DNA from: a virus | IMG/VR virus record: IMGVR_UViG_3300028548_002090 | Span: 1 to 26,297 of that record | Direction: 5' to 3' (one strand) | DNA length: 26,297 nucleotides | Shown: piece by piece, positions 13,718 to 23,993 of the stretch | Layout of the letters: each line of letters starts with the position of its first letter | How positions within the stretch are numbered: the stretch's first letter is position 1 | Translations under genes and position numbers: made by a program | Notes under the pieces: model-generated | The model's database searches: none | The model's input: the letters and a program-made list of their open reading frames with translations, nothing else | What the model was told of the DNA's origin: nothing

Positions 13718-13931
13718 GGTGCTTGCCCCGTGGACGGTCTTTCAACCAGTCGCGCACCTCTTGCTCGACCCACCGGCTGGCAGTATTCTTAGCGCCATCG
13801 TTCTCACCCAGGATAATAGGTTTAGGAAAGTCACTGTTGCTGACCCACTTGTATATAGTGGACCGCGATACACTTAACCAATCGCTCAGTTCCGCGATAC
13901 GCATAAGCTTTTCATCAGAAGGGAATGTCAT
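13707..13931 (-). CDS. AlpA/excisionase-like helix-turn-helix protein
   Basis: 74 residues. 'MRIAELSDWLSVSRSTIYKW' followed by 'FPKPIILG' and 'ASRWVEQEVRDWLKDR' is the standard MerR-like winged HTH of AlpA/excisionase (HTH_17) proteins: a DNA-binding helix (STIYKW), a basic wing, then the conserved W-x-x-x-E-x-x-x-W helix. ATG at 13931 has GGAG seven bases upstream and lies inside the last codons of the primase gene, so the primase tail and this gene's ribosome-binding site share bases. It could regulate transcription or act as a recombination directionality factor; no integrase is in the window. Confidence 0.85.
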   Translation of the reverse strand: MTFPSDEKLMRIAELSDWLSVSRSTIYKWVSNSDFPKPIILGENDGAKNTASRWVEQEVRDWLKDRPRGKHLED

Positions 13932-15444
13932 TGTCTATCTCCACGTTTTGTAGTGCTGTTTCATTTTCAAAGGCTGGGACCCACCAGACTCTGATAGTAG
14001 AAAATTTGCCGTCTTCCTTACGAATGTTTTGATGCCCGTAACAATCATCTCCACTGTTCATATTCTTAATCTGTTCTTGGATCTCGGCTCTGTTGTAGTC
14101 ATTGAAGCCCCTGTTCTTTAGGAACTGTGTTACTCCACTCATTGTAAACTTAGTAAGACCATCCTCTGTCCAAGGTTTGCCCATGGATAATTCCTCGGGA
14201 GATACGGCTCGGATGCGGCTGGTGCAGTAGTTGGTAAGTAGTTCCTTGAACTGACCACTGATCGTAAGTTCTTCGGGGACATCCATCTTTACTGACTTGG
14301 ACATCAGGCCGTTGATCATCTGTTGCCAGTCGTTGGCCTTCATCAGCGGGGGCATCATACTTAATTGATCCATGCAGGACCGCTGCCACAACGTCTGGTT
14401 CTGCAACTGTTCTACAGTTAGCTGAAGTCTCTGCCCATCAACGTCCATGAAGTACATCCTGGGCTCGGACAACATGATCGTAAGACCACCAACACTGGGC
14501 GCATCAGGTGCGCTGCTTCCTATACCAAACGGTCTGGACTTACATATCTTCTTGTCGCAGTGATCCTTCAACGGGCAGATGTCACACTGAAGAAAGTATT
14601 CCTTCTTCATCAAAGACTTTTGCAGATCTACAATCTCGCCAGCTTCTAAGGCGGGACTGCACAGCATGCGGTTGTAATCCTCATGGTGCTTCTTCCAATC
14701 GTCAGGCCACTTGAACCTGCAATACACACCCACATTAAACATAAAGATGTTGCGGAACTCAGTCACCGAACCTTGGCTGGAGATAACTTCCAAGCAGTAG
14801 GGCCCGTCAGTAAAGTGTGATCGCTCACCACCAAAGGTCATCTCGTCTAGGTCCGAGGCAGATACACGAGCCTTGCTCACTGCCTTGTGGAACTGGGCCA
14901 TGGTCATCGACTCGCCCTTGGCGTCCAACGCATAGCGTGTCGTGATGTCACCACCAAAGTATGGCATGTTGATAAAGTTACCAACGTCCCCTCGATCAGC
15001 AAGGATCTTGTCCTGCTTGGGGAATATCTCACACCCGCTGTAGCCCAGCGCGACAGACATCTCGGTCAGGTATTCTCGGACCAGTGCCGCCGGCTCCCAA
15101 TCCTTGGTAAACAAATAAAGGTGGGCGCCACCGGACTTAGACCTGCACATAATCAACGGCAGCTTCATCTCATAAACCTTATCGTTCAGAGCTTTCAAAT
15201 CTAAATCATAAGTATCGATATCAAGAGCGCCGAACTTACACATGTTGTCTTGAGTAATAGGGATGGAGCCCACGCCCATCTTGCCTTCGATATGTTCCTG
15301 TATCTTTTCTTCTGTAAGAGCGCCCCGAACAACGCGGCTATCAGACTCGGCCTTGCCGTTCCGACCGGTACGACCAACAACAGTTGTCCCGTGAGCCGCA
15401 CCCGATCCCTCGAACGCCTCTATTAATTTTTTTGCATCTGACAT
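13915..15444 (-). CDS. TOTE-type archaeo-eukaryotic (AEP) DNA primase
   Basis: 509 residues. The N-terminal domain has the AEP catalytic pattern: 'ALDIDTY' (D75, D77), 'CRSKSGGAHLYLF' (H108) and then 'EIFPKQD' and 'GNFINMPYFGG', as in TOTE conflict-system primases and phage prim-pols. Residues 287-301 form a C-x2-C-x5-C-x4-C cluster, probably zinc-binding. The C-terminal about 120 residues look like a DNA-binding wing domain; no Walker A is present, so no fused helicase. The last residues 'VEIDNDIPF' look like the acidic tip of bacterial SSB. ATG at 15444 has AAGGGG eight bases upstream. It presumably primes synthesis for the PolA encoded downstream. Confidence 0.88.
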   Translation of the reverse strand: MSDAKKLIEAFEGSGAAHGTTVVGRTGRNGKAESDSRVVRGALTEEKIQEHIEGKMGVGSIPITQDNMCKFGALDIDTYDLDLKALNDKVYEMKLPLIMCRSKSGGAHLYLFTKDWEPAALVREYLTEMSVALGYSGCEIFPKQDKILADRGDVGNFINMPYFGGDITTRYALDAKGESMTMAQFHKAVSKARVSASDLDEMTFGGERSHFTDGPYCLEVISSQGSVTEFRNIFMFNVGVYCRFKWPDDWKKHHEDYNRMLCSPALEAGEIVDLQKSLMKKEYFLQCDICPLKDHCDKKICKSRPFGIGSSAPDAPSVGGLTIMLSEPRMYFMDVDGQRLQLTVEQLQNQTLWQRSCMDQLSMMPPLMKANDWQQMINGLMSKSVKMDVPEELTISGQFKELLTNYCTSRIRAVSPEELSMGKPWTEDGLTKFTMSGVTQFLKNRGFNDYNRAEIQEQIKNMNSGDDCYGHQNIRKEDGKFSTIRVWWVPAFENETALQNVEIDNDIPF

Positions 15445-18657: not shown

Positions 18658-19006
18658 CTTCGAATGTCGTTACGATCAGATCAAAGCAAAGTTTGCAGAG
18701 TTTCATAGTGAACATCCAGATGTCTATCAGTGGGTAACACAGTTCACGTTTGAATTGATTGACCGTGGCTATGAGAACTACTCGATCGATGGTGTGTTAA
18801 TGAGGGTGCGCTGGGAGAAGGACATCTACTACGATACATCTGTCGGGTTTAAGATTAACAATAACTTCTCAGCGTTCTATGCTCGTATGTTTATGGAAGA
18901 GTATCCAGATCATGAAGGGTTCTTTCGTACACGCAGGCAGATCAGCCTGATGGCGCCGGCGATTAATCAAGACGAGCTAACGCCAGAGTTCTTTGATGCA
19001 CTATAG
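18641..19006 (+). CDS. Conserved-looking phage protein of unknown function
   Basis: 121 residues, with AGGAAAATCAA before its ATG. The text 'FELIDRGYENYSIDGVLMRV' followed by 'GFKINNNFSAFYARMF' and 'HEGFFRTRRQI' is a pattern I recall in many phage and mobile-element hypothetical proteins, so it is very likely a real conserved family. The dense aromatic and charged residues suggest a compact soluble fold, and I know no assigned activity. It sits between the SNF2 ATPase and the PP-loop protein. Confidence 0.75.
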   Translation: MSLKDNFECRYDQIKAKFAEFHSEHPDVYQWVTQFTFELIDRGYENYSIDGVLMRVRWEKDIYYDTSVGFKINNNFSAFYARMFMEEYPDHEGFFRTRRQISLMAPAINQDELTPEFFDAL

Positions 19007-19829
19007 ACTACCAGATGGTAATGTACTGATAAGTTTTTCGGGGGGCAGGACCAGTGGGTTCATGCTCCACGAAATACTAAAGGCGAACGACGGTCTTCCC
19101 GAAAGGTGCAAGGTGTTGTTCGCCAACACTGGTCGAGAGATGCCGGAGACGCTGGACTTTGTACAAGAGTGCAGCGAAAGGTGGAACGTTCCTATTACTT
19201 GGCTAGAATATAACCGGCGTGATAGTAAAGTAACCTTTGATATAGTCAACCATAACAGTGCCAGTCGTACCGGCCAACCGTTCGAGTCCATGCTGACCAG
19301 CGCAAAGATACTACCCAATGTGCATCGACGGTTCTGTACCCAAGAATTAAAAGTAAAGACAATTAAAAGATACCTAGTGTCTCAAGGTTGGAAGACCTGG
19401 GCCCAAGCAATCGGCATCCGCAAGGATGAAGGCCGTCGCATCAAGGTGTCTAAAGAAAAACGATGGGACAACTGGTATCCATTGAACGATGCTGGCGCCA
19501 CTAAGGCTACGGTCATGGAGTTCTGGAACGCACAGAAGTTTACACTGAATTTATACGGGCCCAATGGTGTGACACCCAAAGGTAATTGCGATGGCTGCTT
19601 CCTTAAATCTGAGGCCACGCTTGCTATGATGTGGCGCGAACACCCCGATCGAATGCAGTGGTGGGCTGACGTGGAAACCCGTAGGTCAAAAGAGATAGGT
19701 AAGAAGTGTCACTTCCATGAGAGCCGGACATACGCTGGGCTGGGAGAGTTTGTCAGTAGGCAAGGGGACTTTATCTTTGATGATGAAGCCTATCTATGCC
19801 AAGCAGATGACGGGGAATGCACTGGCTGA
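18996..19829 (+). CDS. PP-loop ATPase, PAPS-reductase-like phage protein
   Basis: 277 residues from ATG 18996 (a TTG lies one codon earlier), overlapping the previous gene by 11 bases. The PP-loop 'SGGRTSG' (15-21) binds ATP and forms adenylated intermediates. 'HRRFCTQELKVKTIKRYL' matches the conserved Cys-Thr..Leu-Lys region of PAPS-reductase-like proteins, and 'GNCDGCF' adds a CxxC. In cellular relatives this fold reduces PAPS or modifies nucleic acid with sulfur (DndC, TtcA-like). The partner cysteine-desulfurase genes are not here, so sulfate reduction is unlikely; nucleic-acid modification is plausible but unproven. It is last in its operon, before a terminator. Confidence 0.87.
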   Translation: MHYRLPDGNVLISFSGGRTSGFMLHEILKANDGLPERCKVLFANTGREMPETLDFVQECSERWNVPITWLEYNRRDSKVTFDIVNHNSASRTGQPFESMLTSAKILPNVHRRFCTQELKVKTIKRYLVSQGWKTWAQAIGIRKDEGRRIKVSKEKRWDNWYPLNDAGATKATVMEFWNAQKFTLNLYGPNGVTPKGNCDGCFLKSEATLAMMWREHPDRMQWWADVETRRSKEIGKKCHFHESRTYAGLGEFVSRQGDFIFDDEAYLCQADDGECTG

Positions 19830-22825: not shown

Positions 22826-23070
22826 TACGATCTCCCCTGCTTTGCCATTATGTCTTCAATGCTTTCCCGCAAATCTAAGTCGAAGGTCAGGGTCAGCCGC
22901 CACTCATCCGCGCATGCTAAGTGCGTTGCCATCTGATCTGCCATCTTCCAAGCGTTATGAAGAAACTCGTCGGGATCGGGACCGTCTTCGTAATGGTCCG
23001 CTGTTATAGACGTGGACGATATAACTAAGTTGTCAACGTCCCGTAGTTTGATTGTTGCTTTCATAGGCAT
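22825..23070 (-). CDS. Small protein of unknown function
   Basis: 81 residues from ATG 23070, with AAGGAAGG upstream (inside the methyltransferase end) and a TAATG overlap with the methyltransferase stop. Alternating strands ('KATIKLRDVDNLVISSTSIT', 'EWRLTLTFDLDL') suggest a small alpha/beta fold. No family is recognised. It is coupled into the methyltransferase operon and to the MGLDMYL-type gene. Confidence 0.7.
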   Translation of the reverse strand: MPMKATIKLRDVDNLVISSTSITADHYEDGPDPDEFLHNAWKMADQMATHLACADEWRLTLTFDLDLRESIEDIMAKQGRS

Positions 23071-23993
23071 TACGTTTCCTTCCTTGTTTCCATATAGCTT
23101 TCGATTAAACCTTGCGCGACTTGAGGAACGATGCCGTTACCGTAGGCGCGCAATCGTCCCACCCTTGAGGTAGCCCCATCAACCAACGGGCATGTGCTGG
23201 GTTCAACTGGCCTCCACTTGCCATCTCGGCAGAAGAGCCAGTCAGCATCTTTCCAGTGGCCGTTAGTCTTGCCGCTTGGTCCTCGCTCCATGCCGTCAGT
23301 TGCGCTTGCGCTCCCGTGTTCCACCCGTGCTTGCCCGTCAGATGTGAGGGTGCTATCCCCGTGCCCCCCGTCATGGAGGTCGGTGTTGCCCAGCCCCCCG
23401 TCAGTTGAGCCGTTACGTCCAAGGTGTCCGTGCTGATCTTCCCGTTCCTGATCCGGCCCCCTTGGTATCCGCCCTTGTGATCCCGCGTTGTCGGTGTCGG
23501 CCACGAACCAGAGGCGTTGCCTGATGTGCGGAGCGCCGAACCCCGATGCGCTGAGATCGAACGCCCCGAAGGCGTAGTCCTTTGCTTCCATGTCAGTTTG
23601 TACAAGGTCGAGCCAACCGAGGCCGTCCTTGCTTGCAACTTGCTCTCCAAAGATTGTTGCAGGGCGGCACTCTTGGATGAGGTGGTTCCAATGGGGCCAC
23701 AAATGCCGCTCGTCAGAAGTCCCCGCTCGTTTGCCTGCACCGCTGAAAGGCTGGCACGGGCACGATCCTGTCCAAACTGGCCGATCGTCTGCCCATCCCG
23801 CACCTCTGAGGGCACGGCTCCAGATGCCAATCCCTGCGAAGAAGTGGCACTGAGTAAATTCAAAAAGTTCTTCTGGTCTGACATCACTGATGCTCCTATC
23901 ATCGACAACACCATCCGCGATGTGTCCGGCTTTGATTAAATTGCGTAGCCACTCTGCGGCATACGGGTCGATCTCGTTGTAGTAGGCAGACAT
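23070..23993 (-). CDS. DNA (cytosine-5) methyltransferase
   Basis: 307 residues from ATG 23993, which overlaps the previous TAA (TAATG). Motif I is '[13 protein letters not shown]' (50-62), motif IV '[12 protein letters not shown]' with catalytic Cys80, motif VI appears as 'FGEQVA' (GEQV instead of ENV), motif VIII 'IRQRLWFVA' and motif X '[10 protein letters not shown]'. The enzyme transfers a methyl group from S-adenosylmethionine to C5 of cytosine, probably protecting phage DNA from host restriction. The central part after residue 170 is Gly/Asp/His-rich and poorly ordered, and it is exactly there that another open frame (23105-23884) shows conserved-looking protein sequence. No cognate restriction endonuclease is adjacent. 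Confidence 0.93.
23105..23884 (-). CDS. Overprinted gene nested wholly inside the C5 methyltransferase
   Basis: A 259-codon frame on the same strand but in a different phase. ATG 23884 ([18 protein letters not shown]) has AGGAG exactly eight bases upstream, a real ribosome-binding site inside the methyltransferase gene. The product matches a phage/prophage hypothetical family I recall: '[20 protein letters not shown]', then '[16 protein letters not shown]', 'GWATPT', '[20 protein letters not shown]' and '[20 protein letters not shown]'. The LNP..RWLMG.P.GW element also resembles C-terminal segments of other phage C5 methyltransferases. No catalytic motif or membrane segment is seen. The function is unknown; a specificity or accessory subunit for the methyltransferase is one guess. 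The existence of the coding frame is well supported; its expression is inferred. Confidence 0.75.

Follow-up and report, generated by a model that had tools for sequence, protein, structure and literature searches.

A phage C5-methyltransferase whose two subunits are probably encoded by nested reading frames

A single stretch of viral DNA very probably encodes both subunits of a heterodimeric phage C5-methyltransferase. The outer gene, alpha, encodes the catalytic chain, and a second gene, beta, read in another frame inside it, would supply the specificity cassettes and motif IX. We also think it likely, with somewhat less confidence, that the pair represents a widespread phage family of split C5 enzymes in which the whole specificity array, one to eight interchangeable cassettes, is encoded in the nested frame and the gene is partitioned between the two frames along its length.

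The window, that is, the whole stretch of DNA analyzed, is an entire viral record of 26.3 kb (26,297 nucleotides), and this record may be a fragment. Alpha has 307 codons and runs on the minus strand from ATG 23993 to a stop ending at 23070. The beta frame, also on the minus strand and at +1 relative to alpha, ends at 23105 and has no stop as far upstream as ATG 23914 (269 codons); from ATG 23884 it has 259 codons, all of them inside alpha. The first-pass annotation had described a 259-codon frame within a 307-codon methyltransferase gene on the same strand and in another phase, and the layout is as it stated. The third sense frame at alpha contains 14 stops in the window. Among the genes near the pair are those for a repressor-like protein and the terminase small subunit. 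Elsewhere in the window, the product of positions 13918-15444 (minus strand) has an archaeo-eukaryotic primase domain of the TOTE conflict-system type (PF22548), and its gene adjoins those for a family A DNA polymerase and a UvrD-like helicase; positions 18993-19829 (plus strand) encode a PAPS-reductase-like protein (PF01507).

The features of alpha are the following, where w is the substitution ratio described below with its interval in brackets.

23070..23993, minus strand: alpha, the outer C5-methyltransferase subunit (307 aa), with motifs I, IV, VI, VIII and X and without IX
23796..23852, minus strand: alpha motif I, conserved columns in alignment A3
23742..23768, minus strand: alpha motif IV with the catalytic Cys, GSCPCQPFS; P79 and C80 are invariant in A3, and the motif aligns with M.HhaI
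23637..23651, minus strand: alpha motif VI, FGEQV, with an invariant Glu in A3
23499..23522, minus strand: alpha motif VIII, RQRLWFVA, in A3
23286..23456, minus strand: alpha linker between VIII and X, which is the beta cassettes read out of frame; predicted to be disordered; w 1.6 (0.86-3.6)
23100..23165, minus strand: alpha motif X; G285 and N286 are invariant in A3; alpha w 0.27 in the IX+X region

Alpha is the C5 catalytic core. It matches PF00145 in Pfam (E=1e-10) and phrog_363 in PHROGs (8.6e-84), and motifs I, IV (PCQ), VI and VIII are present by the PF00145 match, an alignment with M.HhaI and Foldseek. Motifs I, IV, VIII and X, which had been named earlier, are all visible in alignment A3, as is motif VI. 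The core of the AlphaFold model matches M.HaeIII and M.HhaI (Foldseek matches 1dct and 2i9k). The pLDDT is mostly above 85 over residues 1-170; between VIII and X it is largely below 50, mostly 35-50. Motif IX and a target-recognition domain (TRD) are absent from the alpha chain, and its VIII-X stretch is unconstrained and predicted to be disordered. The alpha model, ordered over residues 1-170 and disordered from VIII to X, agrees with the pattern of constraint in this chain.

The nested gene has these features.

23105..23884, minus strand: beta, the nested subunit (259 aa), +1 frame; phrog_1008; constrained over the overlap (w given below)
23893..23897, minus strand: Shine-Dalgarno AGGAG of beta, inside the alpha V-D-D-R-S-I codons; called from the sequence and from codon bias in relatives
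23546..23668, minus strand: beta N-terminal conserved element, predicted helix plus hairpin; pLDDT mostly 70-87 within a model that is poor overall; w 0.50
23393..23503, minus strand: beta cassette 1, a proposed target-recognition module; the module is found in slots 1, 2 or 3 in 72 loci
23270..23392, minus strand: beta cassette 2 plus linker; its module type is found in 17 loci
23159..23206, minus strand: beta motif IX; L, P, WLMG and P are invariant in alignment A2; profile match to canonical motif IX

Beta is a real, functional gene. It matches phrog_1008 in PHROGs (1.6e-29); Pfam and NCBIfam gave no match above threshold and PDB profiles nothing usable. The structure model is poor (pLDDT 59.5, pTM 0.26), and so the failure of Foldseek to find a fold match with it is uninformative. 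From the window alone, a chance origin of the open frame is weakly excluded: when the synonymous codons of alpha were shuffled, 3.0 beta-frame stops were expected and the probability of no stop was 0.014. Since this value is not overwhelming, and most records annotate the outer gene alone, one could read the beta frame as an untranslated by-product of codon usage and of the conserved motifs of alpha. We find this scarcely credible. Among 185 diverse relatives, 5.5 beta-frame stops were expected in each and 0 were found over the open frame; the relatives were picked for having that frame, and the expectation is a measure of how unlikely it would be by chance. Three results presented below also contradict it: beta has a w of 0.07 where alpha is unconstrained, codon bias preserves the Shine-Dalgarno sequence, and pairs of loci that share a cassette are conserved in the beta frame and not in the alpha frame.

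The linkage of the two genes is close. Whether homologs of the nested product always lie inside a methyltransferase gene had been asked at the outset, and in the closest viral relatives beta is nested in the same phase in 80 of 80. Of the relatives collected with alpha peptides, 70 have a complete alpha, and in every one of them the nested beta is open and includes motif IX; this collection was meant to limit ascertainment, and its contigs largely repeat the first set. Of the 356 open reading frames in which motif IX occurs, 303 lie wholly within alpha, in every case at +1. About 38 more overlap alpha with differing or broken ends, 11 are at contig edges, three form a single open reading frame with alpha, apparently through frameshifts, and one is a truncated copy that has no alpha core. 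A DNA-pattern search for motif IX alone gave 240 loci, and the 238 that were readable all belong to this split-methyltransferase family. Apart from the truncated copy, the searches turned up no beta that stands alone between adequate flanks, with profiles that could miss very divergent ones. This bears on the possibility that beta is a separate phage protein, a regulator or inhibitor, overprinted on the methyltransferase by chance. Its lack of a Pfam domain would suit that explanation; however, beta has motif IX, which alpha is missing, and with the rarity of freestanding copies this makes an unrelated protein highly improbable.

Several loci display unusual arrangements of the pair. For example, Dunaliella viridis virus SI2 (L090:1626-2099) has a miniature copy that consists of the first residues and motif X of alpha and motif IX of beta, with the catalytic core lost; a PF01507-type gene lies upstream of this remnant, as one is also present in the window. 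A Klebsiella aerogenes NCTC9644 plasmid (L083:3842-4948) has a pair with several frameshifts that is annotated in fragments, either through sequencing error or decay. In Komagataeibacter phage phiKX2 (L094:2468-3051) an insert with an HNH-like frame, a possible intron or homing insertion, splits the pair between motifs IX and X; the alpha frame is open through it and the beta frame is not. One contig (L243:132-1952) has two nested pairs in tandem, possibly by duplication.

Selection was measured in both frames across homologous loci, a comparison that the first-pass annotation had proposed. We used a home-made OLGenie-style count over 126 pairs from 78 sequences, at locally homologous positions only, with a bootstrap over sequences; the pairs are non-independent. 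For beta, dNN/dNS is 0.39 (0.34-0.45) over the whole overlap. By region it is 0.50 (0.45-0.57) in the N-terminal part, 0.07 (0.05-0.11) in the cassettes and 0.40 (0.32-0.51) in IX+X. The alpha values (dNN/dSN) are 0.15, 1.60 (0.86-3.61) and 0.27, and the unused +2 frame, as a control, gave 1.61, 4.25 and 0.91 in the same three regions. From these values, purifying selection acts in both frames and is split by region, on motifs I-VIII and X in alpha and on the cassettes and motif IX in beta. In the cassette region beta alone is constrained and alpha drifts. The earlier suggestion that one 780-bp stretch yields two constrained proteins is therefore borne out in that both frames are under selection, but the constraint is divided and the cassettes are constrained in beta only. 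Bacterial and phage genes that are nested yet translated separately often meet with doubt. This pair is a strong test case for overprinting because the many loci allow selection to be measured in both frames, and that selection divides cleanly along domain lines.

The start of beta is better placed at 23884 than at 23914, because in eight relatives (L040, L043-L046, L048, L050 and L053) a stop codon falls shortly before the site equivalent to ATG 23884. The AGGAG at 23897-23893 is eight bases ahead of this ATG on the minus strand, as noted in the first reading. AGGAG[CT] is present in 67 of 126 distinct relatives; most often, the first start codon is an ATG that follows the hexamer by seven bases. 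In the same 126 relatives the Arg of alpha VD[ED]RSI is encoded by AGG in 54%, compared with 10% for all other Arg and 1% at the Arg of DERHLW. The Shine-Dalgarno sequence of beta inside alpha VDERSI is thus under codon selection, and the bias, the hexamer and the spacing of the ATG support independent initiation over frameshifting. A programmed +1 frameshift would produce an alpha-beta fusion with I-VIII, the cassettes and IX. The constant phase would be consistent with this, and a few loci (L071, L379) do have I-VIII, cassettes and IX in one frame, although those look like sequencing or mutational frameshifts. Moreover, the fusion would be without motif X, and neither the conservation of beta upstream of the cassettes (w 0.50) nor its own selected ribosome-binding site fits a frameshift, which we regard as very unlikely.

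The C-terminus of beta had been said to resemble those of C5-methyltransferases, and it matches C5 motif IX, which is absent from alpha. Its LNPxxxxWLMGxPxxW aligns with xLTPRExARLxGFP of canonical C5 enzymes from bacterial genomes; hhalign gave a probability of 43.5 and an E of 2.4e-4 in a single comparison, and the best of 100 column-shuffled controls reached 1.9. In the window, motif X belongs to the alpha frame, and seven of its bases are shared with the end of motif IX. Three loci (L272, L275 and the second copy in L109) differ in that the beta-like frame runs in canonical order from the cassettes through IX to X, and the alpha, truncated beyond VIII, shares only the initial part of beta. 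These are M.AquI-like splits that display the canonical order of core, cassettes, IX and X. Pfam found no match in these IX-X forms of beta, so the motif IX call rests on the profile comparison and the order. In L109:628-3343 (plus strand) a nested pair with X in alpha is directly followed by an AquI-like pair with IX and X in beta. Of the two origins hinted at earlier, the companion subunit was the right one, as motif IX of beta complements alpha. An ancient frame-shifted duplicate of alpha is rejected: beta has no alpha-like core and repeats no alpha domain, and what it holds is the portion absent from alpha.

The stretch of beta from the N-terminal element to motif IX is made up of modules that each begin with WxTP. 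There are one to eight per protein (mostly one to six; two in the window), with a median of 37 residues and 330 similarity clusters among the inner modules. The second module of phage N15 is a related form of the first module in the window. In 91 pairs a module is more than 80% identical on backbones that are less than 60% identical, and in 53 of these the module is in different slots; L111 and L275, for example, have one module in common at 86% and upstream parts that are 20% identical. Within 41 equal-length pairs with the same module, identity is 85% in the beta frame, 45% in the alpha frame and 73% in the DNA. One whole cassette differs and the upstream DNA is identical in L023/L026, L025/L039 and L011/L013. 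The cassettes recur over unrelated backbones and slots and are gained or lost whole. One-frame monomers with WxTP cassettes, sought in 386 loci, were represented only by frameshifted cases. In Krischvirus LF73P4 (L092:1878-2733), compared with phage Aragogtheria (L088), a change at the cassette has put the N-terminal part of beta and motif X of alpha into a single frame, and the pair should be inactive as a result.

We infer that the cassettes are exchangeable target-recognition domains. It might be argued that alpha and beta do form a heterodimer but that the cassettes are something else, such as protein-protein or anti-restriction modules, with specificity set elsewhere. The beta model gives the cassettes no structural support, and the TRD of M.EcoHK31I was predicted in the large subunit, at least in the summary in PMC3404938. 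Still, the cassettes are exactly between VIII and IX, the site of C5 TRDs; the matching alpha stretch is unconstrained and predicted to be disordered; and the shuffling and tandem number mirror those of multispecific C5 enzymes. We therefore consider another function for the cassettes unlikely.

The mechanism we propose is as follows. Alpha would bind AdoMet and perform catalysis through its core (I-VIII) and would also contribute the motif X helix. Beta, initiated at its own ribosome-binding site inside alpha, would provide the small N-terminal element, the tandem target-recognition cassettes and motif IX, and together the two chains would amount to a single enzyme like M.HhaI. This enzyme presumably methylates the phage DNA and so probably shields it from host restriction. 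Each cassette probably corresponds to one target sequence, in which case phages would switch specificity by swapping cassettes. If the cassettes are recognition domains, the collection would be a catalog of natural C5 specificities, each testable singly, and the cassettes would be exchanged as DNA that has to remain open in two frames with only one of them constrained.

By tblastn, beta is present in 223 phage records (including Escherichia, Klebsiella, Rhodobacter, Salmonella, Xanthomonas, Pseudomonas and other phages) and 15 plasmids; it is also found at 51 loci in bacterial genomes, and divergent forms occur in Paenibacillus, Lactobacillus and Bacteroides phages. Most records examined annotate the outer gene alone; a few give both, namely PhiXhv-28, Rani (as an 'internal gene') and K1ind2. 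Consequently, many phage 'DNA cytosine methyltransferase' entries probably lack the specificity-setting subunit in their annotation.

A nested C5 heterodimer is an already known kind of enzyme. The proposal of overprinting is supported but not as something unprecedented, because the gene pairs of EcoHK31I, Tn5252 and streptococcal phages were reported earlier. M.EcoHK31I was reportedly described by Lee et al. in 1995 with an alpha of about 309 aa and a beta of 176 aa, the latter in another frame inside alpha. Its target is YGGCCR and that of M.AquI is CYCGRG. M.EcoHK31I, a naturally split enzyme of this type, has already been put to use for targeted methylation. As summarized in PMC3404938, the large chain of M.EcoHK31I has I-VIII and X and the small chain IX. 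By motif layout, the window and its relatives are split in the same way (A2, A3 and the motif IX profile), and, as is said of M.EcoHK31I, the small chain is read in another frame inside the large gene. They differ in that beta is longer and has the WxTP cassettes, and in that our data favor target recognition in beta and not, as predicted for M.EcoHK31I, in alpha. Wholly overlapping C5-methyltransferase genes in different frames are also described in S. thermophilus 5093-group phages, a pneumococcal phage and Tn5252 (PMC5601072); compared by description, those overlaps were called striking, without subunit roles, cassettes or selection analysis.

M.AquI is split differently: as summarized in PMC3404938, its alpha has I-VIII and its beta part of the variable region and IX-X. 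Only L272, L275 and the second copy in L109 match that type, with X beside IX in the small chain; in the window motif X is in alpha and the genes are nested. The cassette array, the divided constraint and the embedded ribosome-binding site have no description in the literature searched (REBASE and most subscription papers were outside it), and the breadth of the nested layout together with the cassettes seems newly described. In the multispecific C5 enzymes of Bacillus phages (SPR, phi3T and rho11), recognition modules that can be exchanged, each about 40 residues long, stand in tandem between VIII and IX. Those enzymes are monomers encoded in a single frame; nevertheless, by description, the beta cassettes are like their modules in position, tandem number, length and shuffling, and beta has the tandem exchangeable modules between VIII and IX that are expected of a multispecific C5-methyltransferase.
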